The notes beneath the pieces were generated by a model, which did not search any database, had not been told where the DNA came from, and saw nothing but the letters and a program-made list of their open reading frames with translations. Below are positions 52,287-64,000 of a DNA stretch of 64,000 nt, one piece after another. The position numbers were made by a program, and so were the translations under genes. The stretch's first letter is position 1. Each line of letters starts with the position of its first letter. This stretch comes from Nonomuraea polychroma. Lineage in GTDB: Bacteria; Actinomycetota; Actinomycetes; Streptosporangiales; Streptosporangiaceae. The stretch spans positions 9,327,501 through 9,391,500 of the forward strand of contig NZ_SAUN01000001.1 in NCBI RefSeq assembly GCF_004011505.1, in the 5' to 3' direction.

Positions 52287-52788
52287 ATGACGCATACCGA
52301 GATGGAGATCACCGCGGAGTTGGTGCGGGGTCTGCTGCGCGATCAGCACCCCGACCTGGCCGATTACCCTGTGAGGCTCGGCGCGCGGGGCTGGGACAAC
52401 CAGCTCTGGCGGCTCGGCGACGACCTCGCCGTCCGGTTGCCCTGGGCGACGCAGGACGCGGACGAGCTGCTGCGCAAGGAGCACACCTGGCTGCCGCCCT
52501 CGCCCCGCGCTTCCCGCTGCCGGTTCCCGTCCCGCAGCGCCTCGGCGAGCCCTCCGCTCTGTTTCCGCGACCCTGGATCGTCACCACCTGGGTGCCGGGC
52601 GAGCCCGCCGACCGCGCCCCCGTCACGCGCGCCGCGGAGGCCGCCGACGCCCTGGCCGCCTTCCTGACGGCGCTGCACCAACCCGCACCCGATGAGGCGC
52701 CCGCCGGCCGCTTTGGCCGCGGAGGGTCGCTGGCCGACTGCTCTGCGGGGTTCGCCAAGCAGCTCGCCGAGGCCATCGAGATGGGGCT
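52287..52788 (+). pseudogene. Aminoglycoside phosphotransferase family protein, 5' part
   Basis: N-terminal lobe of an APH-type kinase: ITAELVRGLLRDQHPDLADY, GARGWDNQLWRLGDDLAVRL and ADELLRKEHTWLP. A one-base loss near 52497 shifts the frame, after which it continues PRFPLPVPVPQRLGEPSALF, WIVTTWVPGEP and FAKQLAEAIEMGL. At 52788 it is cut by a 5.63-kb element. The catalytic half resumes at 58421. Joining ATG-GGG-CT to C-ATC-CCC-GAC gives EMGLIPDP in frame. The gene therefore has two lesions, a frameshift and the insertion. Confidence 0.85.
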
Positions 52789-52828
52789 CGGGGCTCGACG
52801 AGCAACGGAACGAAAAGTCTCGGTTTCC
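52789..52828. repeat. Left terminal inverted repeat
   Basis: Outer end starts CGGGGCTCGACGAGCAACGG. It is the reverse complement of 58381-58420 with one mismatch at position 52795. The inner 33 bp (52796-52828) are perfect. Confidence 0.9.
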
Positions 52829-52843
52829 AAGGTCTCCGAGCAC

Positions 52844-52876
52844 CAAAACCGAGACTGGTCGTTCCAATGCTCGTCA
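52844..52876. repeat. Internal diverged arm of the inverted repeat
   Basis: About 26 of 33 positions match the right arm in the same orientation. With the left arm it forms an 81-bp hairpin at the left end. It may be a relic of a short palindromic element from which the larger unit grew, or it may act as a terminator. Confidence 0.6.
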
Positions 52877-53003
52877 GCCACATGGAGGCGCTGGTCAGAA
52901 GGGGCGCACGTGTGGTAACGGTTTGATCGCTTACCCGACCGCGAAGCGGTGCGGTGTCCTAATTTGCCGCCTATGCGGTGGAGTTCCTGACCGATGCCGG
53001 CCT

Positions 53004-53021
53004 GAGTTAAAGATGAGTTAA
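53004..53021. promoter_or_regulatory. Direct repeat GAGTTAA x2, OmpR-type site
   Basis: GAGTTAA at 53004-53010 and 53015-53021 lie 11 nt apart, one helical turn, as in tandem half-sites of OmpR-family regulators. A further GTTA follows at 53031. The site is 50 nt before the lipoprotein start and is probably bound by the response regulator of this operon. Confidence 0.5.
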
Positions 53022-53070
53022 GCAAATCTGGTTAGCTTCTTTTAAACCCTTGTCCAGCATGCTGCGGGGC

Positions 53071-53529
53071 ATGGCGAACATAAAGATTGCCCTGAAGGGA
53101 GCAGCCTTCCTCGCTACCTCAGTGGTCCTCGTGTCATGCGGCGGTGGCCCCGGGGCGCAGGGAGACTCCGGTGATCAGGCGAAGTACGCGGCGTGCCTGC
53201 GGGATCAGGGTCTCACCGTCACGGAGCGGAGCGACGGGCTGGACATCAAGGCGGACTCCCCGGAGAAGAGCAACGCGGCCAAGTCGGCCTGTAAGCAGTA
53301 CGCCCCGGCCGGTGAGGAGGTGTCGCCCGAGGACAAGAAGCAGGCGATGGACACCGCGCTCCAGTACGTCGCGTGCATGCGCAAGGCGGGAGTCGACATG
53401 CCGGACCCGAAGCAGGATCCTGACGGCGGTGTCGCTGTAAAGCTGCCGGACGGGATGACCGAGGACACGCCGGTGGTTCAGCAGGCGCAGAAGGCGTGCA
53501 AGGAGCAGGCTCCTGGGAACTCCGAGTGA
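53071..53529 (+). CDS. Putative lipoprotein
   Basis: A 152-residue exported protein. The leader ALKGAAFLATSVVLVSCGGG has a lipobox with Cys as the lipidation site. The mature part has four further cysteines in a repeated pattern (KYAACLRDQGL ... SACKQY; QYVACMRKAGVDMP ... ACKEQ), suggesting two similar helical halves with disulfides. This resembles actinobacterial proteins encoded with MacB-type ABC operons. ATG 53071 is used; ATG 53059 is an alternative. The stop overlaps the next start (GTGA). It probably senses or sequesters a compound at the surface. Confidence 0.78.
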   Translation: MANIKIALKGAAFLATSVVLVSCGGGPGAQGDSGDQAKYAACLRDQGLTVTERSDGLDIKADSPEKSNAAKSACKQYAPAGEEVSPEDKKQAMDTALQYVACMRKAGVDMPDPKQDPDGGVAVKLPDGMTEDTPVVQQAQKACKEQAPGNSE

Positions 53530-54566
53530 GGCGCACGGCGGTGCTGCTGAGCGGCGTAGCGGTGATCGGAAGCGGGGCTGTGGTGGGGTTCATGAACCTC
53601 CCCGGTCGTACGGCAGCGCCGGCGTCGAGCCCCAACGGTGCGCAGACGTCGTCCGTGCCGATCACGCGTTCCGACATGGTGGACACCAAACAGGTCAGCG
53701 GCACCCTCGGGTACGCGGGCCGCCGCATCCAGCCGAACCGCGCCAGCGGGGTGGTCACGGCCACCCGCGCCGAGGGAACGGTGGTGCGTCGGGGCGGCTG
53801 GCTGTACAAGGTGGAGGGCAAACCGGTGTTCCTGATGTATGGCGCCGTCCCGATGTATCGGCGCCTTGGTGTCGGCACCACAGGCCCGGATGTCCAGCAG
53901 CTGGAGCTGAACCTGGTCAAGCTGGGATACAAGTCCGGCACGGTCGACAAGACCTTTACCGCTGTGACCGCCCAGGCGGTGTGGGCCTGGCAGCGCGATA
54001 AGGGGCTGGTGGCGACGGGCAGGGCGGAGGTGAGCCAAGTGATCTTCTCGAGGGGCGCGCTTCGGATCGCGGAAAACACCAAGGAGGCGGGGGATGCCGC
54101 TGAAGGTTCGGTGGTGACAACAACCAGGACCGAACGGGCTATCACCATCAAACTGGAGACCTCCAACCAGCAATTCGCTCGAAAGGGCGCCAGGGTGAGG
54201 GTGCAACTGCCGGACGGCAAGAAGGTCGCTGGAACGATCTCCTCTGTCGGGACCATCGCACGGCCCGGGAAGGATGCGGACAGTCCGGCAACGATCGATG
54301 TCAGTGTCAAGGTCGGCGGCGAACTGGGCAGGCTGGATCAGGCGCCGGTCACGGTCGAGCTACGAACCGGGCGCCGCAAGGACGTGCTGTCGGTGCCGGT
54401 CGAGGCACTGATCGCGCGAGAAGGCGGCCAGTACGGTGTGCGGGTGGTGCAGGGCGGGACCCGGCAGGTGGTGCCGGTCGAGACGGGCCTGTTCACGGGG
54501 AGCCGTGTCGAGATCTCTGGTGCCGGCCTGTCGGAGGGCGTGAGAGTCGAGGTTCCCAAGCTATGA
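53526..54566 (+). CDS. Peptidoglycan-binding adaptor of MacB-type ABC exporter
   Basis: A 346-residue membrane-anchored adaptor. One N-terminal helix ([20 protein letters not shown]) is followed by a beta domain. A PG_binding_1 domain follows ([39 protein letters not shown]), then HlyD-like beta-barrel segments ([40 protein letters not shown]). In Gram-positive bacteria such proteins replace the periplasmic adaptor and may anchor the pump to the wall. The GTG start overlaps the upstream stop and the stop overlaps the ATPase start. Confidence 0.85.
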
Positions 54567-55264
54567 CCGCCGTCGTCGAGCTGACCAAGGTGACCAAGGA
54601 GTTTCCCGGTGGCGTTCTGGCGCTGCGAGGAGTGGATTTGCGCGTGGATACCGGAGAGCTGGTCGCCATGGTCGGCCCTTCCGGGTCGGGCAAATCGACC
54701 CTGCTCAACATGATCGGTACCTTGGACCGGCCAACGCAGGGCCAGGTGCGCATCGCCAGCTACGACGTGGCGCAGCTGAGCGATCACGAGCTGTCGGCGC
54801 TGCGTGCCCAGCACATCGGGTTCATCTTCCAGCAGTTCCACCTCGCGGACGGAGTTTCCGCTCTCGACAACGTCGCTGACGGTTTGCTATATGCCGGGGT
54901 GGCGCGGCGTGAACGCCGGCGACGGGCGGGTGAGGCATTGGAGCGTGTCGGCCTGGCGGATCGGCTGGAGCACCGATCGAATCAGATGTCGGGCGGGGAG
55001 CGGCAGCGGGTCGCCGTGGCCCGCGCCGTGGTCGGGGAGCCGTCGCTGGTGTTGGCCGATGAGCCGACCGGCAACCTTGACACCGCATCAGGGGCAGAGG
55101 TTCTTGCGACGTTGCGGAATCTGAACGCCGCCGGCGCCACCGTGGTGATCATCACGCACGACCTGGAGGTCGCGGCCGCCGCGCCACGCCGGATCCACAT
55201 CCGTGACGGCCTGGTCGTCGCGGATGAGGCCTCCGAGGCCGGCGAGATTGGAGCTCTCCGATGA
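54563..55264 (+). CDS. ABC transporter ATP-binding protein (MacB/LolD type)
   Basis: A 233-residue ATPase. Walker [14 protein letters not shown]-loop [18 protein letters not shown], signature [14 protein letters not shown], Walker [15 protein letters not shown] and H-loop ITHDLEVA are all present. The sequence is of the mechanotransmission class that pairs with FtsX-like permeases. It is coupled to both neighbours by 4-nt overlaps. Confidence 0.95.
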
Positions 55265-56463
55265 CGGATCGGATCGGCAAAGCACGGCTGACCCCGGCCC
55301 GGATGAACCTGGAGGATGTGGCGCGGGTGGGTGTGGCGGGGCTACGGGCCCGGCCCACGCGGGCCGTGCTGTCCGCGTTGGGGATCGCCATCGGCATCGC
55401 GACCATGGTGGCGGTGCTGGGCATCTCCTCCTCCAGCCAGGCTCGCGTCATGGAGACCCTGGATGAGCTGGGGACGAACATGTTGACCGTCGCCCCCGGC
55501 AAGCAGTTCTCCGAGAAGAAAGCCAGGCTGCCGAAGAACGCGGGCCGGATGATCCGGGGCGTGGAGCATGTCGCCATGGCCGGTCAGACCGGTGATACCG
55601 GCAAGGCCATCTACCGCAACGATCGCATCCCTTCGACGCGCACCGGTGGCCTTCAGGTCCGCGCCACATCCCTGGATCTGCTGGAGGTCCTGCAGACCCC
55701 TGTCCACAGCGGAAGGTGGCACGATGCGGCCACCGCGGCGCAACGCACCGTGGTGCTGGGATCCACGGCCGCCACACGGCTCGCCGCCACCGCCGGAGAC
55801 TCGGTGTGGATCAACGGTCAGTGGTGGACGGTGATCGGGGTCCTGGCCGAATCGCCACTGGCGGAGGACGTCGACGTGGCCGCGCTGGTCGGCTTCGCCG
55901 CGGCGGATGCCTTCCTCGGTTTCGATGGACACCCGACCTTGGTCTACACGAAGATCGCTGAGGAGAAGGTCACGGAGGTCAGGGCGTTGCTGAATCACGC
56001 GGCGAACCCGGAGCATCCAGAAGAGGTCACGGTCAGCCGCCCCTCCGACGCTCTGGAGGCGAGGGCCGCGGTGGCGGGGGCATTCACCAGCCTGTTGCTT
56101 GGTGTCGGCGGCGTGGCCCTGCTGGTGGGCGGGGTCGGCATCGCCAACACGATGATCATCTCGGTACTGGAGCGGCGTCGTGAGATCGGCCTGCGTCGCG
56201 CGCTCGGGGCCACCACCGCCCAGGTTCGCATCCAGTTTCTCGCCGAATCCCTGATTTTGGCCGGGGCGGGCGGGCTCACCGGCTCGCTGTTGGGAGTGGT
56301 CGGCACCATCGGGTTCGCGCTGACACAAGGGTTGCCGCCGGTCGTGCCCACGTGGGTGATCGGCGGCGGACTCGGCGCCACACTCGCCGTCGGCGCCATC
56401 GCCGGACTCTACCCGGCGATGCGGGCCGCTCGGATGTCGCCGACGCTGGCCCTGTCCGCCTGA
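55261..56463 (+). CDS. MacB-type ABC transporter permease
   Basis: A 400-residue permease with one N-terminal helix ([20 protein letters not shown]), a large extracellular MacB_PCD domain (residues about 60-250) and three C-terminal FtsX helices ([60 protein letters not shown]). The [18 protein letters not shown] motif is typical. It forms a pump or lipoprotein/antibiotic-release machine with the ATPase and adaptor. The exact substrate is unknown. Confidence 0.94.
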
Positions 56464-56500
56464 GACGTACCATGACGACCGACATCCAGGAGCATCGAAC

Positions 56501-57190
56501 ATGCGCGTGCTGGTTGCCGAAGATGAGAAAGGCCTGGCCGACATCATCGGCACCGGGCTGCGCAAGGCCCGGATGGCCGTGGACGTCGTCTATGACGGGG
56601 ACGCGGCCCTGGAACGGGCGATGACCAATGAATACGACGTGATCGTGCTCGATCGGGACTTACCCGAGATCCACGGTGACGATGTCTGCCGGAGGCTGAT
56701 GGAGGCGCAGGTCCCCGCACGGATCATCATGCTCACCGCCGCGGGTGACCTGTGGTCGAAGGTGGAGGGGCTGAGCCTGGGTTCTGACGATTACCTCGCC
56801 AAGCCCTTCGACTTTCCCGAGCTCGTCGCCCGGATCCGAGCCCTGGCACGGCGGGTGCCGACCCGGCTCCAGCCGGTTCTGCAGATGGCGGGCATCACCC
56901 TGGACCCCGCCTACCACGAAGTGCATCGCAACGGGCGCTACGTGGCTCTGAGCCCCAAGGAGTTCACGGTGCTGGAGGTCTTCATGCGGTCGGGCGGAAG
57001 CGTCGTCAGTGTCGAGGATCTGCTGGAGAAGGCATGGGACGAGAACGTCGACTACTTCACCAACTCCGTGCGGGTAACGGTGGCGACGCTGCGCAAGAAG
57101 CTGGGACCGCCACCGGTAATTCAAACCGTGATCGGAGCGGGCTACCGTCTCGTCGCCCCTGGCCACGGAGCACCGTCAGGGTCCGGCTGA
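56501..57190 (+). CDS. OmpR-family response regulator
   Basis: A 229-residue two-component regulator. The receiver carries AEDEKGLADIIG (acidic pocket), phosphoacceptor Asp in DVIVLDRDLP and the lysine in DDYLAKPFDF. The winged-helix domain follows (LSPKEFTVLEVFMRSGGSVV, VRVTVATLRKKLG, TVIGAGYRLV). It lies 37 nt after the permease. It likely binds the GAGTTAA repeats at 53004-53021. Confidence 0.95.
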   Translation: MRVLVAEDEKGLADIIGTGLRKARMAVDVVYDGDAALERAMTNEYDVIVLDRDLPEIHGDDVCRRLMEAQVPARIIMLTAAGDLWSKVEGLSLGSDDYLAKPFDFPELVARIRALARRVPTRLQPVLQMAGITLDPAYHEVHRNGRYVALSPKEFTVLEVFMRSGGSVVSVEDLLEKAWDENVDYFTNSVRVTVATLRKKLGPPPVIQTVIGAGYRLVAPGHGAPSGSG

Positions 57191-58314
57191 CCGCGCTCTA
57201 TGCCAGCCCCTTCCTCATCATGGCCGTGGTCATGCTGCTCGCGGTGAACCTGCTGCTCAGCAGCGCGCTTGGGGTGAGCGTCTCCGTCTCGGGCCGAGCA
57301 CCTCAGCCCTCGGCCGCCGGGGCGCCGACCCGGGGCGAAGTCGACCAGGAAGCGGTGTTCCAAGGCCACCTTCAGCTGCAGTATGAACTCCTGAGGTACC
57401 AATGGGCCGCCACCGCGATCATCATCGCTGTCCTGACGGTGGTCTCCGTAATCCTGGGCTGGTGGCTGGCCGGACGCGTCCTGCGCCCGATTCGCAGCGT
57501 CACCTCCACGGCCCGCCGACTGTCCCTGTCCAACCTCCATCAGCGGATCGCGATGCAGGGCCCCGACGATGAGCTCAAGGAGCTCGCCGACACCTTCGAT
57601 GACATGCTCGACCGGCTCGAGCGCTCGACCGATGCTCAGCGCCGGTTCGCCGCCAACGCCTCCCATGAGCTCAAGACACCCCTGGCGCTGGACCGGGCGC
57701 TGCTGCAGGTGGCGTTCGGCGAACTTCCCGAGGAGATGCTGGAGGCCCGGGATGAACTCCTCGCCTCCAACAGCCGCCAGCATCGGCTCATCGACGGACT
57801 CCTGATGCTGGCCGCGGCAGAACACACGCTGACCAACGCAGAGCCCGTCGATCTGGCCGACCTGGCCCGGCGTGTCCTCTGCGAGCACCCCGGCGCGACG
57901 GTGGACCTGTCACCGGCCCTCACCTCCGGCGATCCCGTTCTGGTGGAGCGGTTGATCGCGAATCTCGTGGAGAACGCCGAGAAGTACAACGACCAGCGTA
58001 GGTTCATCGCCGTCCGGACCGGAACGGGCAATGGAGGCGCGGTCCTCACCGTGGAGAACACCGGGCAGGAGATTGCCCACGAGGTGGTGTCATCGCTGTT
58101 CGAGCCGTTCCGGCGCCTCACCAGCGACCGTACCGAGTCGGTGTCCGGCGCGGGCCTCGGCCTGTCGATCGTGGCCGCCATCACACGCGTCCACGGAGGC
58201 ACGATCGATGCCGTCCCCCGCACCGGCGGCGGCCTCGCCGTGACGGTACGACTCCCGGACATGGGGTCAGTGTTGAAAGCGCAGCTAAGGTTCTCAACGG
58301 GCGGCCGGGGGTAA
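57172..58314 (+). CDS. Sensor histidine kinase (start codon unclear)
   Basis: A membrane kinase of about 380 residues. It has two transmembrane helices (PFLIMAVVMLLAVNLLLSSA; AATAIIIAVLTVVSVILGWW) around a short extracellular loop of 60 residues, then HAMP (LRPIRSVTSTARRLS), phosphoacceptor FAANASHELKTPLALD and ATPase (NLVENAEKYND, VENTGQEIAHEVV, SGAGLGLSIVAAIT). Homology begins about VRVRLTALYA at 57175, but no ATG, GTG or TTG lies in frame between ATG 57034 (157 nt inside the regulator gene) and ATG 57220 (inside helix 1). The left boundary is set by homology. It may overlap the regulator or use an unusual start. Confidence 0.85.
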   Translation, partial: TVRVRLTALYASPFLIMAVVMLLAVNLLLSSALGVSVSVSGRAPQPSAAGAPTRGEVDQEAVFQGHLQLQYELLRYQWAATAIIIAVLTVVSVILGWWLAGRVLRPIRSVTSTARRLSLSNLHQRIAMQGPDDELKELADTFDDMLDRLERSTDAQRRFAANASHELKTPLALDRALLQVAFGELPEEMLEARDELLASNSRQHRLIDGLLMLAAAEHTLTNAEPVDLADLARRVLCEHPGATVDLSPALTSGDPVLVERLIANLVENAEKYNDQRRFIAVRTGTGNGGAVLTVENTGQEIAHEVVSSLFEPFRRLTSDRTESVSGAGLGLSIVAAITRVHGGTIDAVPRTGGGLAVTVRLPDMGSVLKAQLRFSTGGRG

Positions 58315-58380
58315 AGCAACGCAGCGACTCCACCCATGTGATCAGTTGCCGTGCGGGACCTGAATCGGCTCGAGCTGGCC

Positions 58381-58420
58381 GGAAACCGAGACTTTTCGTT
58401 CCGTTGCTCGTCGCGCCCCG
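58381..58420. repeat. Right terminal inverted repeat
   Basis: Begins GGAAACCGAGACTTTTCGTT and ends TCGCGCCCCG at the outer edge. It is the reverse complement of 52789-52828 with one mismatch. The next bases GCT repeat the left flank. Confidence 0.9.
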
Positions 58421-58841
58421 GCTCATCCCCGACCCGGACGCCGTCCGCGCTGTCTGGGACGACGCCGCCGCCGCGCCCAACTGGTCCGGCCCGGCGCTCT
58501 GGCTCCACGGCGACCTGCATCCGGCCAACGTCCTCACCGCGGACGGCACCATCTGCGGCGTGATCGACTTCGGCGACCTGTTCGCCGGCGATCCTGCCTG
58601 CGACCTCGCCGCCGCGTGGATTCTGCTGCCGGACGACACCGCCGACCTCTTCCACGCCGCCTACCAGCCGGCCCCGGACGCCGCGACCCTGCGCCGCGCC
58701 CGCGGGTGGGCAGTGCTCCGTGCCCTCAGCGGCCTCCTCATCGGCGAAGCCGGCGTCCGCGGCCGCCCAGGCGGCAAGCCCGCCTGGGGCCTACCCGCCC
58801 ACGCCGCGTTGCGGCGCCTCATCGCAACGGCCCATCGCTGA
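58421..58841 (+). pseudogene. Aminoglycoside phosphotransferase family protein, 3' part
   Basis: C-terminal lobe with the catalytic motifs: LWLHGDLHPANVL (HGDxHxxN with the catalytic aspartate) and CGVIDFGDLFAGDPACDLA (metal-binding DFG-like). It continues to a normal end (AALRRLIATAHR). It is cut off from its 5' part at 52788 by the TIR element. This half is intact in sequence but has no start of its own. The phosphorylated substrate is unknown; this subgroup is often not a true antibiotic-resistance enzyme. Confidence 0.88.
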
Positions 58842-58880
58842 TCGATCGCCTCTCCACACGCTCGAATACCTTCGCGCCGG

Positions 58881-58907
58881 ACCCCACCATGCTCGGCATG
58901 CTGGGGT
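58881..58907 (-). terminator. Hairpin directly after tniQ stop
   Basis: ACCCCACCATGC and GCATGCTGGGGT form a 12-bp stem with one mismatch around TCG, touching the tniQ stop codon. No T-run follows on the minus strand, so it may be a weak terminator. Confidence 0.45.
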
Positions 58908-61349
58908 CTACTTGCCTGATGTACCTGACAGACCTCCAAGCGGCTGACCAGCCAGTTCACTTGACAACCCCAGATAGCCTGCGAAGTCGGCCTTGGAGTC
59001 CATGGCTTTGCGGGTGCTGGCGCCACCGCTTGGGCGGAGCGGGATGCCCAGGTCATGGGCTCGGCGGGTGATGTAGTTGGTGCTGGTGCCCTTCTCACGT
59101 GCGATATCCGCTAGTGTCCTGCGGCGTGTGACGTACTGCTCGTATAGCCAGTCTGGGTCGATGGCGTTGTGGTGTTTGAAGTAGCGGCCGACCTTGCGTA
59201 GCTCGATGCCGTACTCCGCTGCGAGTCTGGTTACGGTGGCTTTCGATACGCCGATGTCGAGCGCGATGGTGCGCGCAGACTGATGTTCGTCGAGGTAGCG
59301 GCGGCGAAATTCCTCCTCCGTAAGTACTTGGCGGGCGGCGTGGCGCACTTGCCCAAGGGCACGGGCCTGGGCCGCGGTGAGCGGCGCAGCCGGAATCGGG
59401 TGTTCCTCCAGAACGAGACGCACGGCCTCGATGCTGACGCCGAGAGTCTGGGCGGCCGATCCGGCTGGGTAACGGCGTCCCCCGGTCAACTCGTGCAGGC
59501 GATCGATGTCGATGGTGGACGGGTCAGTGCCGGGCAGTTCGAGACCGTCGAGTAGGCCGAGCGGTGGCCACCAGACCACCGGTTCGCTCCGCAGCCCGCA
59601 TCCGCTGACGAAGTCGCGTGCGACTTGTTTGAGGGCGTCCGCGAGCTGCGGAGACCACACCTCAGTGAAGCGCTCTGCTTCTGAGCGGAAGGAGTACACG
59701 TCAGCGGTGGGAAAGTCGGGCGCATGGTTGACAGGCATGCCGCTGATCTGGCTGAACAGAACACATCGCGCGATACGGGCCCGTCGCCCGCCTCCTGGGG
59801 AATGGCCGGTTTGGCGGCAGATCTCCACCCATTGCTTGGCCGGTAGCAGGTTCGAGTAGTCCAGGGTGCGGCGGCGCTGGTAGTCGATGGGAATGTCGTT
59901 CTCGTCCAAGTAATGTGCGAGGCGAATCAGGGCTGTGGCGACCGGTTCCCAACACTGCCGATCGTGCAGCATCTGCAGTACGCGCGATAGTGACTTGCCG
60001 TCGCTGGCCGATCCGAGCATTGATGCAGCCGCGTCGAGTTCGAGTTTGGTTCCAACCAGAAGCACCCCCGCAGCCAGCACGGGTGCCAGGATGCGCTGGT
60101 AAGCGCCGCTGGAGGGGCTCAGCCGCACGGCCCATGACGGCCACAGCGCGGCGGGGAGTTTGTTTGAGCGCCGACTGACCTGCCGGGCGGTGACAGACGG
60201 AGGGGAGGGAAGCGCGACGGTTTGGTACCGCAGTTGGTCACTCGGGCGAAGCAATGGTCCGAGCGCGGCCAGTTGTATCGTCCGTAGAACCGTGCCGGTG
60301 CCTCGGCCCCAGCCTCGGATGGTGGTGGTCGTGGTCTTCTCAGATCCGTTGCGGGACTTACCGATCACCGTGCGTAGGGCGTGGGCGGCTGAGCTCAGCT
60401 GCGCCACGCCGAGCACCTGCATCGCGGCGATGACCGCGGCTGCCGTCATCGCCGATGTGGGCGGTGCCATGAACCCTGGGCGGCTCGCCTCCCGTCGCTC
60501 TGGCTCGTTGCTCGGCTGGGAGGTGATGTGGGCGTTGAGGATGTCGGCGGGAACCCTTGCCGCCAAGTCGTCAGCGCCCAGGTGGGTCAGCATCCGACTA
60601 GCAACTGCGCGCAGTTCGGAAAGCGCCACGGCGGAGGGCTGAGGATGCCGGTAATACTGGCCGAATTCTGCACGGTCGGTCTCGATCATGTTCGTGATCA
60701 GGCGTTGGGCCTCAATCGCGGGATGGCCCGTGGGCAGGCGGAGAGCCTCAGCCTGGGTGAGGTCCTGGTCGCATTCGCGCGGGGCGTCGGGGTCAGCGGT
60801 TCGGGGCGGGCGGGTGCCGCAGTGTCCCGGGATCGGCAGGCTGCGGCGAGAGAAGGGGCGTCTTCGTGTCAGGCGTCCACATCCTTGGCAGGTGTCCACG
60901 AGTAGGAGGGAGTGGTGGGTGCAGGCGAACGACCAGCCCAGGCGCCACTCCAGCTTCCATCGTCCGGCGCTCTCGGCCAGGCAGTCGGGGCAGTATCGCG
61001 ACCCGGTGCCCCGCCCCCATAGCCGGTGCCGGTTGACCTGCCGCTTCGCGCGATCGATCAACAGTGCTCGACCGTCGAAGTGCGCCAGAGTCATGGCATG
61101 CACACGCTGGTCGTCCAGGCCGGTGGCGAAGGCGATGCCGGCGGCTTCGCGCTCGCTCAGGGCGATGGTCCAGTCGCGGGGACGGGTCCAGCCGGGCGCC
61201 TCGTCCCCGGCCCTGGTTAACAGGCCGAGGCTGGAGAGCACATCGCCGTAGCTGGTTTGCGTCCGGTGCGCGAGTGCCTCCAGCCAGGAGTCCAGGGACT
61301 CTCCGGGAAGCGGTGCCATCCGGATCGGTAGCGTCCGCAAGGTGGTCAC
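58908..61349 (-). CDS. tniQ: TniQ/TnsD-like target-selection protein with HTH-rich C-terminus
   Basis: An 813-residue protein, long compared with a minimal TniQ. The N-terminal TniQ domain begins LPIRMAPLPGESLDSWLEAL and carries zinc-finger ligands C120, C123 (RYCPDCLAE), C143, H145/H146 (FACTHHSLLL) and C154, C157 (DTCQGCGRL). A central region of about 450 residues has no recognisable motif. The C-terminus carries helix-turn-helix units at about 625-650 (AAQTLGVSIEAVRLVLEEHP), 677-718 (ARTIALDIGVSKATVTRLAA) and 739-772 (TLADIAREKGTSTNYITRRA). These probably read the target DNA. GTG 61349 overlaps the tniB stop. TniQ bridges the target site and the AAA+ protein TniB. Confidence 0.88.
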   Translation of the reverse strand: MTTLRTLPIRMAPLPGESLDSWLEALAHRTQTSYGDVLSSLGLLTRAGDEAPGWTRPRDWTIALSEREAAGIAFATGLDDQRVHAMTLAHFDGRALLIDRAKRQVNRHRLWGRGTGSRYCPDCLAESAGRWKLEWRLGWSFACTHHSLLLVDTCQGCGRLTRRRPFSRRSLPIPGHCGTRPPRTADPDAPRECDQDLTQAEALRLPTGHPAIEAQRLITNMIETDRAEFGQYYRHPQPSAVALSELRAVASRMLTHLGADDLAARVPADILNAHITSQPSNEPERREASRPGFMAPPTSAMTAAAVIAAMQVLGVAQLSSAAHALRTVIGKSRNGSEKTTTTTIRGWGRGTGTVLRTIQLAALGPLLRPSDQLRYQTVALPSPPSVTARQVSRRSNKLPAALWPSWAVRLSPSSGAYQRILAPVLAAGVLLVGTKLELDAAASMLGSASDGKSLSRVLQMLHDRQCWEPVATALIRLAHYLDENDIPIDYQRRRTLDYSNLLPAKQWVEICRQTGHSPGGGRRARIARCVLFSQISGMPVNHAPDFPTADVYSFRSEAERFTEVWSPQLADALKQVARDFVSGCGLRSEPVVWWPPLGLLDGLELPGTDPSTIDIDRLHELTGGRRYPAGSAAQTLGVSIEAVRLVLEEHPIPAAPLTAAQARALGQVRHAARQVLTEEEFRRRYLDEHQSARTIALDIGVSKATVTRLAAEYGIELRKVGRYFKHHNAIDPDWLYEQYVTRRRTLADIAREKGTSTNYITRRAHDLGIPLRPSGGASTRKAMDSKADFAGYLGLSSELAGQPLGGLSGTSGK

Positions 61350-62473
61350 GCTCGCCGCCGCGCAGATCGTTTCGGCTTGCTGGTGTTCTTGCCGCCGGCC
61401 AGCAGAGCCTCCCACCGCGCCTGCTGATCTTGCGCGGCCCGGTCGAGTTTGATCGTGGTCATCAGCTCCAGGGTCAAGCGCTCCTCCCCGGTTCGGATCG
61501 CCCGCAGGCACGCTCGTTTGATCAGGGTCATCAGGGAGCCGATGTGCCCGTTGCAGCGGGCGTAGAGGTGATCGGACAGGTCGTCGGCGAGCATGCCGGG
61601 ATGCTTATCGGCCAGCACCAAGCGCTGTTCCAGGGAGAGCAGGAAGCTGCGCCACTGCGTGCGCCCGGCCTCGTCATCGATCGTGAACGGATCCAGATCA
61701 AGCGGGGTGACGCGGCGTTCGAGCTGCGGATCGTCGTAAAGGCCCTTGTCCTTCAAGCCGTGCCCGATGAAAAGGATCATCAGTGGGAACTCATTGGCGA
61801 TCGTCTTGAACTGGTTGGCCAGTTCGGTCCCGCGAATCGACCGGAATCGGAGGAACTGCAGGTCGTCGACCAGCAGGAGCCGTGACTCGCAGGACAGGGC
61901 GCAGTCTAGGGCGCGGGATAGGAACGAGTTCGCGGTCCCGCTGTTGCGCCCGGAGTGGGCGAAGAACTCCAGCATCGCCCAGTTGAAGTCCTTGACCGTG
62001 GTGTCGCCCATCATCCCGACCCGGATCACCGGCCACCGCTCGTGCCCGGCTGCGGTGAACCGGCCGTGCTCGCGGATCAGGTCGTTGTGGACGCGCTTGG
62101 CGAACGACAGTCCGACCGTGGTCTTGCCCAGGCCGGGGAACGCGTCGACGGCGGCCATCCCCTTGGCCTCCCAGTTCGGCTGGTCCAAGCCGGCCTGGAG
62201 GATGTCGGTCAAATCCGCGACGAGCTGGCTTGCCTGTGCGGTCTTGATCGGACGCAGGTTGGCGAGGAACCTGCGGCGCCACAGATCGTGCTCGGCCTTC
62301 GCCTCTGGGCTCAAAGCCTTGAGGCCGGACCTGGTCATGTCTGGAGGGCGGGGGAAATCCGGCGCCTCGGCGAACGTCGCAAAGCCTTCCTTCCTGGTCA
62401 GGGTCAAATCGTCGAGTGCAAGGGTCCTCCACGCTGGATCCTCCCGTGGCACCTGGACCTCAGACAGGATCAC
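61346..62473 (-). CDS. tniB: TniB/TnsC-like AAA+ transposition ATPase
   Basis: A 375-residue AAA+ protein. Walker A is AFPGLGKTTV (residues 111-120) and Walker B SRLLLVDDLQFLR. The sensor segment is ILFIGHGLKDKGL, and the C-terminal helical lid ends in a basic tail (KPKRSARRR). It polymerises on DNA and links TniQ-marked target to the TniA transposase. GTG 62473 overlaps the tniA stop by 4 nt and its own stop overlaps tniQ. Confidence 0.93.
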   Translation of the reverse strand: MILSEVQVPREDPAWRTLALDDLTLTRKEGFATFAEAPDFPRPPDMTRSGLKALSPEAKAEHDLWRRRFLANLRPIKTAQASQLVADLTDILQAGLDQPNWEAKGMAAVDAFPGLGKTTVGLSFAKRVHNDLIREHGRFTAAGHERWPVIRVGMMGDTTVKDFNWAMLEFFAHSGRNSGTANSFLSRALDCALSCESRLLLVDDLQFLRFRSIRGTELANQFKTIANEFPLMILFIGHGLKDKGLYDDPQLERRVTPLDLDPFTIDDEAGRTQWRSFLLSLEQRLVLADKHPGMLADDLSDHLYARCNGHIGSLMTLIKRACLRAIRTGEERLTLELMTTIKLDRAAQDQQARWEALLAGGKNTSKPKRSARRRA

Positions 62474-64000
62474 AGGTCCTCCAGGGCATCGGCGTAGAAG
62501 GACTCCTCGTCGAGTTCGGCATCCTCGCCAAGCACCCCGCCCTCGAAGTCTTCGGCGTCCGCGGCGTCATCGTCCCCGCCGATGTCGGCGGGCTCTCGCA
62601 CGAGCTCGCGCGGGGGCTGCTTGTCCCACTCAACGGCGAACGCGATCTGTTCCCTGGCCGCACGCAGCGCGATCCGCCGCTCGGCCAGCGTCATGCCCAG
62701 CCCCAACTGCCAGCGCTCGAGCAGTTCGGACACCGCCAGGCGGTCGTTGGAGTACGGGTGCTTCGTCGCGGCGAGCTTGCGACCGTACTCCAGAGCGTCC
62801 TCGCTCAGCGGGAAACTGCGGCTGGCCGCGTGCTCCCAATCCAGCTGGTGCCAGGTCCGGTCCAGGTCACGGAAGTAGGCGTGGTCGATGTCGTCCGGGT
62901 TGACCTGGATCGGCCACTTGCCGCCCAGATACGGGCTCGGGCGCCCGTCGAGGTAGAGACCAGGGCCGTTGTAGCGCCGACCGTCGATCTCGACCCCGTA
63001 GGGCTGGATGGTGCGCCACTTGGTCTCCAAGAACTCCAGCGCCAGGAATCTGTCCCGGGGAACCTCGATGTAACCGGCCCTGGCCATCCCGTGCTCGAAC
63101 ATCTGCGCTGGCGACATGCGCAGCCCCGGGACCGCCGGGTCGATCAGACTCGAGTGGGGTGTGAGGTGATAGGTCGCCGCGATCCATTGCCGGATCCGGT
63201 CGAACAATTCGTCGATGTAGTAGAACGCCTCCCGTTCAGGCGCCTCGCCCCGGGAGAAGAGATCCAGGCCCTTGTAGCCGGGCAGGGTGTGCAGCAGCCC
63301 TTCCCTCAACGTCTTGAAGAACCGTTCGACCGGCCCCTTGTCCCGGCCCGTCCGGAGCCGGACCGGCTGGATGGAGATGCCCATCCGGGCGCAGACGCTG
63401 CGCAGATGCTCTGAGACGTAGATCTTCCCGTGGTCGATCACCACGGTCTCGGGCACTAACGCGGGTCCTGCCGCCTTCGCCATCGGCCCATCGATCGCCG
63501 TCGGGTCGATCAGCACCGAACGGGGGATGCCGTGCTCGGGCCAGACCGCCTCGCGTGGCCAGTGCGCCGCGACCGGTAACGGCCGGTATGCCTGGAAGAG
63601 GGCCGCGGCCGCGTCCACCGCCTTCGTGGACACCGGCGTCAGCCGGATCCCCACGATGCAGCGGGTGTACCAATCCATCACGACGGTCAGCTCGCAGTTG
63701 ATCCACCGCAGAGTCACCGGATCCAGCGCGAACACGTCCAGCCGGGTGGTGTCCATCAGCAGGTACTCACCCGGCCGGGTCGGGCGCAGACGCCCGAACA
63801 CCTCCCGGGGCCGTCCGGCGATGTCCCGGTTCCGCTTCGTACTCAACCGGAACGTCGGGTGCTGCCGCTCCAGCGCTTCCAACGCCTCATATGCCTTGGA
63901 CTGGCCGGGCATGTCCACCGCGCCCTCACCGAATCGTGCGACCAGGCGTGCCCGCGTGCGTTCGATCACCTCGATGCGCTGCGGTTTGGACTGGTCGGTG
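62470..64000 (-). CDS. tniA: TniA/TnsB-like DDE transposase (5' end beyond window)
   Basis: At least 510 residues of a Mu-type DDE transposase; the N-terminal DNA-binding part lies outside the window. Counting from an internal GTG at 63969, the catalytic residues are D73 (YLLMDTTRLDVF), D179 (TVVIDHGKIYV) and E215 (KGPVERFFKTL). A Mu-C-type beta-barrel follows (VEIDGRRYNGPGLYLDG). The C-terminus is strongly acidic (DDDAADAEDFEGG), as in proteins that contact the AAA+ partner. The frame is open to the window edge. Confidence 0.93.
   Translation of the reverse strand, partial: TDQSKPQRIEVIERTRARLVARFGEGAVDMPGQSKAYEALEALERQHPTFRLSTKRNRDIAGRPREVFGRLRPTRPGEYLLMDTTRLDVFALDPVTLRWINCELTVVMDWYTRCIVGIRLTPVSTKAVDAAAALFQAYRPLPVAAHWPREAVWPEHGIPRSVLIDPTAIDGPMAKAAGPALVPETVVIDHGKIYVSEHLRSVCARMGISIQPVRLRTGRDKGPVERFFKTLREGLLHTLPGYKGLDLFSRGEAPEREAFYYIDELFDRIRQWIAATYHLTPHSSLIDPAVPGLRMSPAQMFEHGMARAGYIEVPRDRFLALEFLETKWRTIQPYGVEIDGRRYNGPGLYLDGRPSPYLGGKWPIQVNPDDIDHAYFRDLDRTWHQLDWEHAASRSFPLSEDALEYGRKLAATKHPYSNDRLAVSELLERWQLGLGMTLAERRIALRAAREQIAFAVEWDKQPPRELVREPADIGGDDDAADAEDFEGGVLGEDAELDEESFYADALEDL

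Follow-up and report, generated by a model that had tools for sequence, protein, structure and literature searches.

A probable Tn3-family mobile insertion cassette carrying a regulated MacAB-like pump operon in Nonomuraea polychroma

The stretch of 64,000 nucleotides analyzed here (the window; C1:9327501-9391500 of the 11.52-Mb, single-contig genome of Nonomuraea polychroma) contains a phosphotransferase-family gene that is interrupted by an element of 5630 bp (positions 52790-58419), bounded by long inverted repeats and filled largely by an operon for a regulated ABC pump. Throughout, G-numbers denote genomes (the window's own genome being G000), L-numbers fetched loci and C-numbers contigs. 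The 5' and 3' parts of the interrupted gene lie on the plus strand at 52305-52784 and 58425-58841, respectively; PF01636 was matched on the 3' part and on the piece at 52493-52786, and no family on 52308-52490. The insertion into a gene of this family, proposed in an original prediction that was made from the letters alone, was borne out by these domain matches and by the corresponding loci of relatives. Separately from the insertion, the first third of the gene (within 52305-52784) is in a different reading frame from the remainder, so that the element may have landed in an already broken gene, unless a sequence error is present there.

Inside the element, six complete genes for a regulated pump, all on the plus strand, were confirmed from open reading frames (ORFs) and domains, as had been predicted. 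The first encodes a small secreted lipoprotein-like protein (53074-53529; ORF open from 53050) with a lipobox read by eye as SVVLVSC, no Pfam family and a relative in Bailinhaonella. It is followed by genes for a membrane-fusion/adaptor-like protein with a peptidoglycan-binding domain (53529-54566; PF01471), a MacB/LolD-type ABC ATPase (54563-55264; PF00005, plus NCBIfam and structure matches) and a MacB-type FtsX permease (55261-56463; PF02687 and PF12704, plus matches to MacB structures). Together these three have the composition of a MacAB-like pump, the adaptor assignment being weak, with an RND_mfp match below cut-off. Farther downstream are an OmpR-type response regulator (56501-57190; PF00072 and PF00486) and a histidine kinase with HAMP, HisKA and HATPase_c domains (57187-58314; start codon approximate). 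The closest NCBIfam models of regulator and kinase are VanR-O and VanS-O, respectively, and since both scores fall far below their cut-offs, we make no claim of vancomycin resistance. Among solved structures, the pump parts come closest to MacB and to 5xu1, the latter being the best match of the ATPase and the third best of the permease; we take 5xu1 to be the Spr0693-0694-0695 pump of Streptococcus pneumoniae. That MacAB-like system, like the cargo in the window, has an adaptor, an ATPase and an FtsX/MacB permease, whereas the gene row in the window also holds the regulator/kinase pair and the lipoprotein. By analogy with such systems, the operon would most likely sense an envelope-acting compound and either export it or respond to the damage. 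A known structured RNA was ruled out as a further component, with no Rfam match up to an E value of 1 in 52300-58900.

The left terminal inverted repeat (52790-52828, plus strand; GGGGCTCGACGAGC...) is 39 bp long, begins with GGGG and is identical at 38 of 39 bases to its counterpart at the right end (58381-58419, minus strand; the inverse of GGGGCGCGACGAGC...). On both sides, the element is flanked by a perfect 5-bp target duplication, GGCTC (52785-52789 and 58420-58424). Ends of 40 bp with one mismatch and a 3-bp duplication, GCT, had been predicted instead; the long inverted ends are real, but the 40th pair is formed by a C and a G of the target duplication, and GCT is only a part of GGCTC. 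We therefore rejected the combination of 3 bp and 40 bp on the grounds of the end alignment and of the empty sites of relatives. Both the ends (inverted repeats of some 38 to 40 bp that start with GGGG) and the 5-bp duplication are those of the Tn3 family, and duplications of the same length surround two further elements discussed below, in G038 (TCGCC) and G037 (TCAAC). Counted by eye, the resemblance to the end of Tn3 itself amounts to about 25 of 38 positions.

To characterize the empty sites, the left flank of the element was searched for in 54 genomes of the genus, the best 20 loci (the window's own and 19 others) were retained, and the left and right flanks were aligned to them separately. 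At 18 of the 19 relatives' loci, the phosphotransferase-like gene was uninterrupted and both flanks matched, the one exception being L060, where the right flank was not found. Wherever the flanks aligned to their very ends (L050, L052, L056, L059 and L064), they overlapped by exactly 5 bases, leaving GGCTC in a single copy; in the other relatives, the flank matches ended a few bases before the junction (53 bases before it for the left flank in L062), the relative's sequence differing there. The peptide EMGLIPDP, which the rejoined halves had been predicted to read, was seen at the junction in several relatives (e.g., L051 and L054). Uninterrupted genes with a different junction sequence had been named as the observation that would speak against a transposon, and the outcome, with its 18 uninterrupted loci and 5-base overlaps, favors the transposon reading.

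It had been suggested that the end sequence be sought in this genome and in related ones, and ends of the same type do border Tn3 transposase genes in relatives. A pattern of the ends, allowing at most 3 mismatches, was found in 27 of the 54 genus genomes, compared with 0 of 54 for a reversed control pattern. In G037, such ends (30 and 31 of 38 positions) enclose an autonomous Tn3 transposon of 7.2 kb (L042:1689-8894) with the duplication TCAAC, which shares its end subgroup and its 5-bp duplication with the element in the window. Between its ends, this transposon encodes a TnpA of 1024 aa (PF01526; 796 bits to NF033527, for which the cut-off is 500) and, at its other side, a serine resolvase; the pump operon, by contrast, is not among its listed ORFs. 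The window element thus has its type of end in common with elements that code for a DDE_Tnp_Tn3 transposase. In G048, tnpA sequence lies between two ends that face inward at a distance of 10.3 kb, and ends of this kind (at least 27 of 38 matches) were found at 5 of the 30 tnpA loci examined. Many other tnpA genes of the genus share only 25 to 60% identity with the G037 gene, so that this type of end is probably the mark of one subgroup within the Tn3 family.

The window's own genome yielded 24 Tn3 transposase matches. Of these, 23 are located at C1:3.51-4.91 Mb, far from the window, and many are fragments. Genome-wide, the end pattern detected only the two ends of the element and one solo end at C1:2336751-2336783 (L191), on the basis of which we rejected a partner transposon in this genome; no Tn3 transposase match lies near the solo end. 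In the eight transposase loci fetched from this genome, which miss some tnpA starts, the best ungapped match to the end was 23 of 38.

In its left arm, the element retains traces of a transposase gene. A remnant of the region upstream of tnpA, together with about the first 8 tnpA codons, was recognized at 52915-52996 (plus strand) by alignment to L030 and L039; its damaged start is followed by VEFLTD, and the cargo flank begins at 52998. The alignment to L030 (G036) covers 82 bases and scores 66, compared with 24 for the best of 5 shuffles; that to L039 (G021) covers the last 39 bases of the stub and scores 48, compared with 25 for the best of 5 shuffles. Both loci are themselves remnants, which continue as Tn3 TnpA N-termini, (MP)VEFLTDVEAAGYGR and similar. 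The prediction that no transposase is present inside therefore stands as far as a complete gene is concerned and has to be amended for this stub; of the intact tnpA and tnpR that an autonomous Tn3 transposon would contain, the stub is all that was found. No promoter emerged when the left arm was scanned in a simple way.

Between the left terminus and the stub, the first 93 bases (52790-52882, plus strand) form a hairpin, consisting of the end and a degenerate inverted copy of itself, that folds far better than 200 shuffled sequences (z = -8.15). At a strict shuffle cut-off, a hairpin copy was detected at 7 of 27 tested ends carrying the pattern, the window's included, and was missing from the other 20; it was also seen at one end of the elements in G040 and G050 and, more weakly and by eye, in G037. 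Such a hairpin, with the inverted copy some 55 to 90 bases in, recurs in some Tn3 elements of the genus (window 52790-52882, L043:9894-9986 and L128:11718-11810).

On the right, a fragment of a DDE_Tnp_1_6 transposase gene (58300-58382, plus strand), which we assume to be IS1182-like, is joined directly to the end on its inner side. The fragment is repeated in other genomes of the family, where its strongest matches stop at 58382-58383. The junction of this scrap with the 39-bp end is common to G000, G038, G047 and G052, which indicates that it is old; G005 retains part of the scrap.

Besides the window's own cargo, copies at about 95% identity or more (94.7 to 99.5%) were found in five other genomes, which belong to two genera (341 family genomes searched, of which 288 were scored, with one candidate per genome, and 53 were not); the next best candidate reached 73% over part of the cargo. 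The copy in G038 (L041:7480-13056; cargo 94.7% identical) is a second complete element, with both ends and with its own duplication, TCGCC, and it interrupts a gene on the opposite strand that reads by eye as a histidine kinase. Its empty site was not recovered, the listed relatives matching its left flank only to base 458 of 500, so that this duplication is read from the two TCGCC copies alone. That the ends are not a product of chance follows from the second site, where they again bracket this cargo and a different 5-bp duplication is present, and from the folding of the left hairpin. The cargos of G047 and G052 are 99.5% identical to that of the window and have the right end but not the left one, and those of G005 (96%) and G082 (a Bailinhaonella genome; 97%) have neither. 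Copies without one or both ends imply that some of them moved or decayed otherwise.

The slowly evolving rpoB gene of the window's genome is 90 to 92% identical to those of G047 (partial), G038 and G005, the three genomes that this comparison covers, as only scraps of rpoB were available for G052 and G082. Against this background, a cargo identity of 99.5% is too high for vertical inheritance, at least in the case of the G047 copy, which therefore spread recently. The window's genome has two rpoB genes (C1:8359275-8362565 and C1:10490546-10493854; open frames of 1161 and 1167 aa). As far as the six cargo genes align, none of the five other copies has a stop codon in the window's frame, and the ratio of nonsynonymous to synonymous polymorphism (pN/pS) was 0.22 for G038, 0.29 for G052, 0.30 for G082, 0.33 for G005 and 0.83 for G047, the last of these resting on few changes (8 synonymous and 18 nonsynonymous). 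The ATPase of G005 contains nine gap columns. An exact 23-base word from the end occurred in genome_contigs only in N. turkmeniaca and Nonomuraea sp. G32, in a scan that may omit the window's own genome and those near it. A plasmid or viral home was rejected for the collections searched, with no megablast match among 72,556 plasmid records and no exact match to the 23-base word in viral_contigs.

Taken together, the element is very probably a Tn3-family mobile insertion cassette, that is, passenger genes between Tn3 ends without transposition genes, which would have arisen from a Tn3-family transposon by internal deletion and which is transposase-less, whenever its tnpA was lost. Its ends and 5-bp duplication indicate that Tn3-type transposition placed it in the phosphotransferase gene, presumably by the replicative route, with nicking at the GGGG ends, formation of a cointegrate and resolution. 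The left arm has kept the upstream region and first codons of tnpA, the rest of that gene and any tnpR having gone, and the element is occupied by an operon that joins a MacAB-like ABC pump to a two-component system. Any further move would need a matching TnpA acting in trans, such as the one encoded beside ends of this kind in G037, and the two complete copies at different sites suggest that such mobilization may have occurred. Since no end of the matching type accompanies a tnpA in its own genome, the window copy is probably stationary now.

Several observations weigh against this reading. Of the 30 tnpA loci, 25 have no such end, each locus reaching only 1.5 kb past the match (in G040, the matching end lies farther from tnpA than that), and among the 288 scored family genomes, no intact transposon combines matching ends with this cargo. 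In the window's own genome, no matching end within 3 mismatches was found beside the Tn3 transposase matches. Four copies lack ends (the left one in G047 and G052, both in G005 and G082), and in the permease of G082, a gap of one base points to a frameshift, unless the sequence is in error. Movement is read from sequence, no transposition event having been observed. Finally, left junctions differ among the copies, so that the cassette may have arisen repeatedly or may have decayed in place.

The last of these points leads to a variant that leaves the core of the cassette interpretation intact: the element might have landed as a complete Tn3 transposon, with ends, tnpA, tnpR and cargo, and have lost tnpA and tnpR by deletion in place. 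The persistence of the tnpA stub would fit such a course, as would left junctions that differ between the window, G038 and G047/G052 in the way that independent deletions would produce. On the other hand, the ORF lists of the six copies, inspected by eye and covering the cargo sides in part, showed no Tn3 transposase gene, either inside the ends or next to the cargo, no intact ancestor was present among the scored genomes, and the left arm of G038, the first 80 bases of which are similar to those of the window (86%), passes straight into the cargo flank without a stub discernible by eye. We regard in-place loss as quite conceivable, at somewhat below an even chance. As for the predicted mobilization of the operon by a nonautonomous transposon, the lack of a complete transposase gene is upheld, and a compatible type of end beside Tn3 tnpA genes, together with the second complete copy and its own duplication, supports the reading of a sensing-and-pump operon borne by a transposon that has no transposase of its own. 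The element may have moved in its present, gutted form; the stub and the differing left junctions also fit later loss.

Alternatively, the cargo might have moved mainly by other means, such as recombination or other mobile elements, with the Tn3 ends added late. At least one end is missing from four of the six copies, and a cargo-flank boundary, CCCGCAACG, is common to G038, G047, G052 and G082, with different left neighbors. We consider a late addition rather unlikely, as both complete copies have proper duplications and as the old right junction is shared by G000, G038, G047 and G052, with part of the scrap still in G005. The boundary itself, at which the cargo begins (CCCGCAACGCTCGCCC), stands beside four different neighbors in L022 (G052), L023 (G047), L041 (G038) and L126 (G082). 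These differing neighbors and arms indicate that the left junction arose repeatedly, and no 5-bp duplication was seen by eye at this boundary in G047 and G052; as an explanation, we can only guess at a crossover of the res type or at a hot spot where deletions end. It is tempting to speculate, as a long shot, that a self-contained operon for sensing and exporting natural products that act on the envelope is passed around among antibiotic-making actinomycetes inside a transposase-less Tn3 cassette, and that the left arm of this cassette is exchanged again and again at one fixed boundary, CCCGCAACG, perhaps by a resolvase at a res-like site, re-equipping the one cargo with new Tn3 arms. An element from outside the Tn3 family that duplicates 3 bp, for example an insertion sequence-type element with captured cargo, can hardly account for the locus: GCT is repeated at both edges, but it lies inside GGCTC, the empty-site overlap is 5 bases, duplications in G038 and G037 are likewise 5 bp long, and the ends are those of elements with a Tn3 TnpA.

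As a class, such elements are not as unusual as had been thought, since passenger genes have already been described in mobile insertion cassettes of the Tn3 family (PMC6304161 and PMC4133298). Those of Xanthomonas likewise carry passenger genes between Tn3 ends, encode no transposition enzymes and rely on the transposase of a related transposon (PMC6304161); the element in the window differs in its actinomycete host, its six-gene sensor-plus-pump operon and its retained tnpA stub and left hairpin. Tn3-derived inverted-repeat miniature elements (TIMEs) and miniature inverted-repeat transposable elements (MITEs) also share with it Tn3-type 38-bp ends, 5- or 6-bp duplications and mobilization in trans (PMC4133298 and PMC13367494), and they are miniature, at 262 bp for TIMEs (PMC4133298) and 50 to 500 bp for MITEs (PMC13367494). 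TIME-COMPs have a TIME at each end, whereas the window element has one hairpin arm on the left and a bare end on the right. Both a TIME and a TIME-COMP were rejected, as the element is 5630 bp long (>500 bp) and its right end has no second copy of the 93-bp hairpin arm found on the left. In the open-licence literature searched, we found no paper joining Tn3, transposon and Nonomuraea. The element would extend Tn3-family mobile insertion cassettes to actinomycetes, namely, to Nonomuraea, with copies of the cargo also in Bailinhaonella. It places a complete regulated pump operon inside a cassette of a kind that annotation by way of transposase genes would miss, and the end pattern offers a means of finding others.

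Beyond the 3' part of the interrupted gene, and adjoining it, the minus strand of the window (58908-63999) contains genes for a TniQ-like protein (PF06527) and, as judged by eye, for an AAA-type TniB-like protein and a TniA-like transposase. These genes resemble a Tn5053/Tn7-like transposition module, which extends past the window edge.

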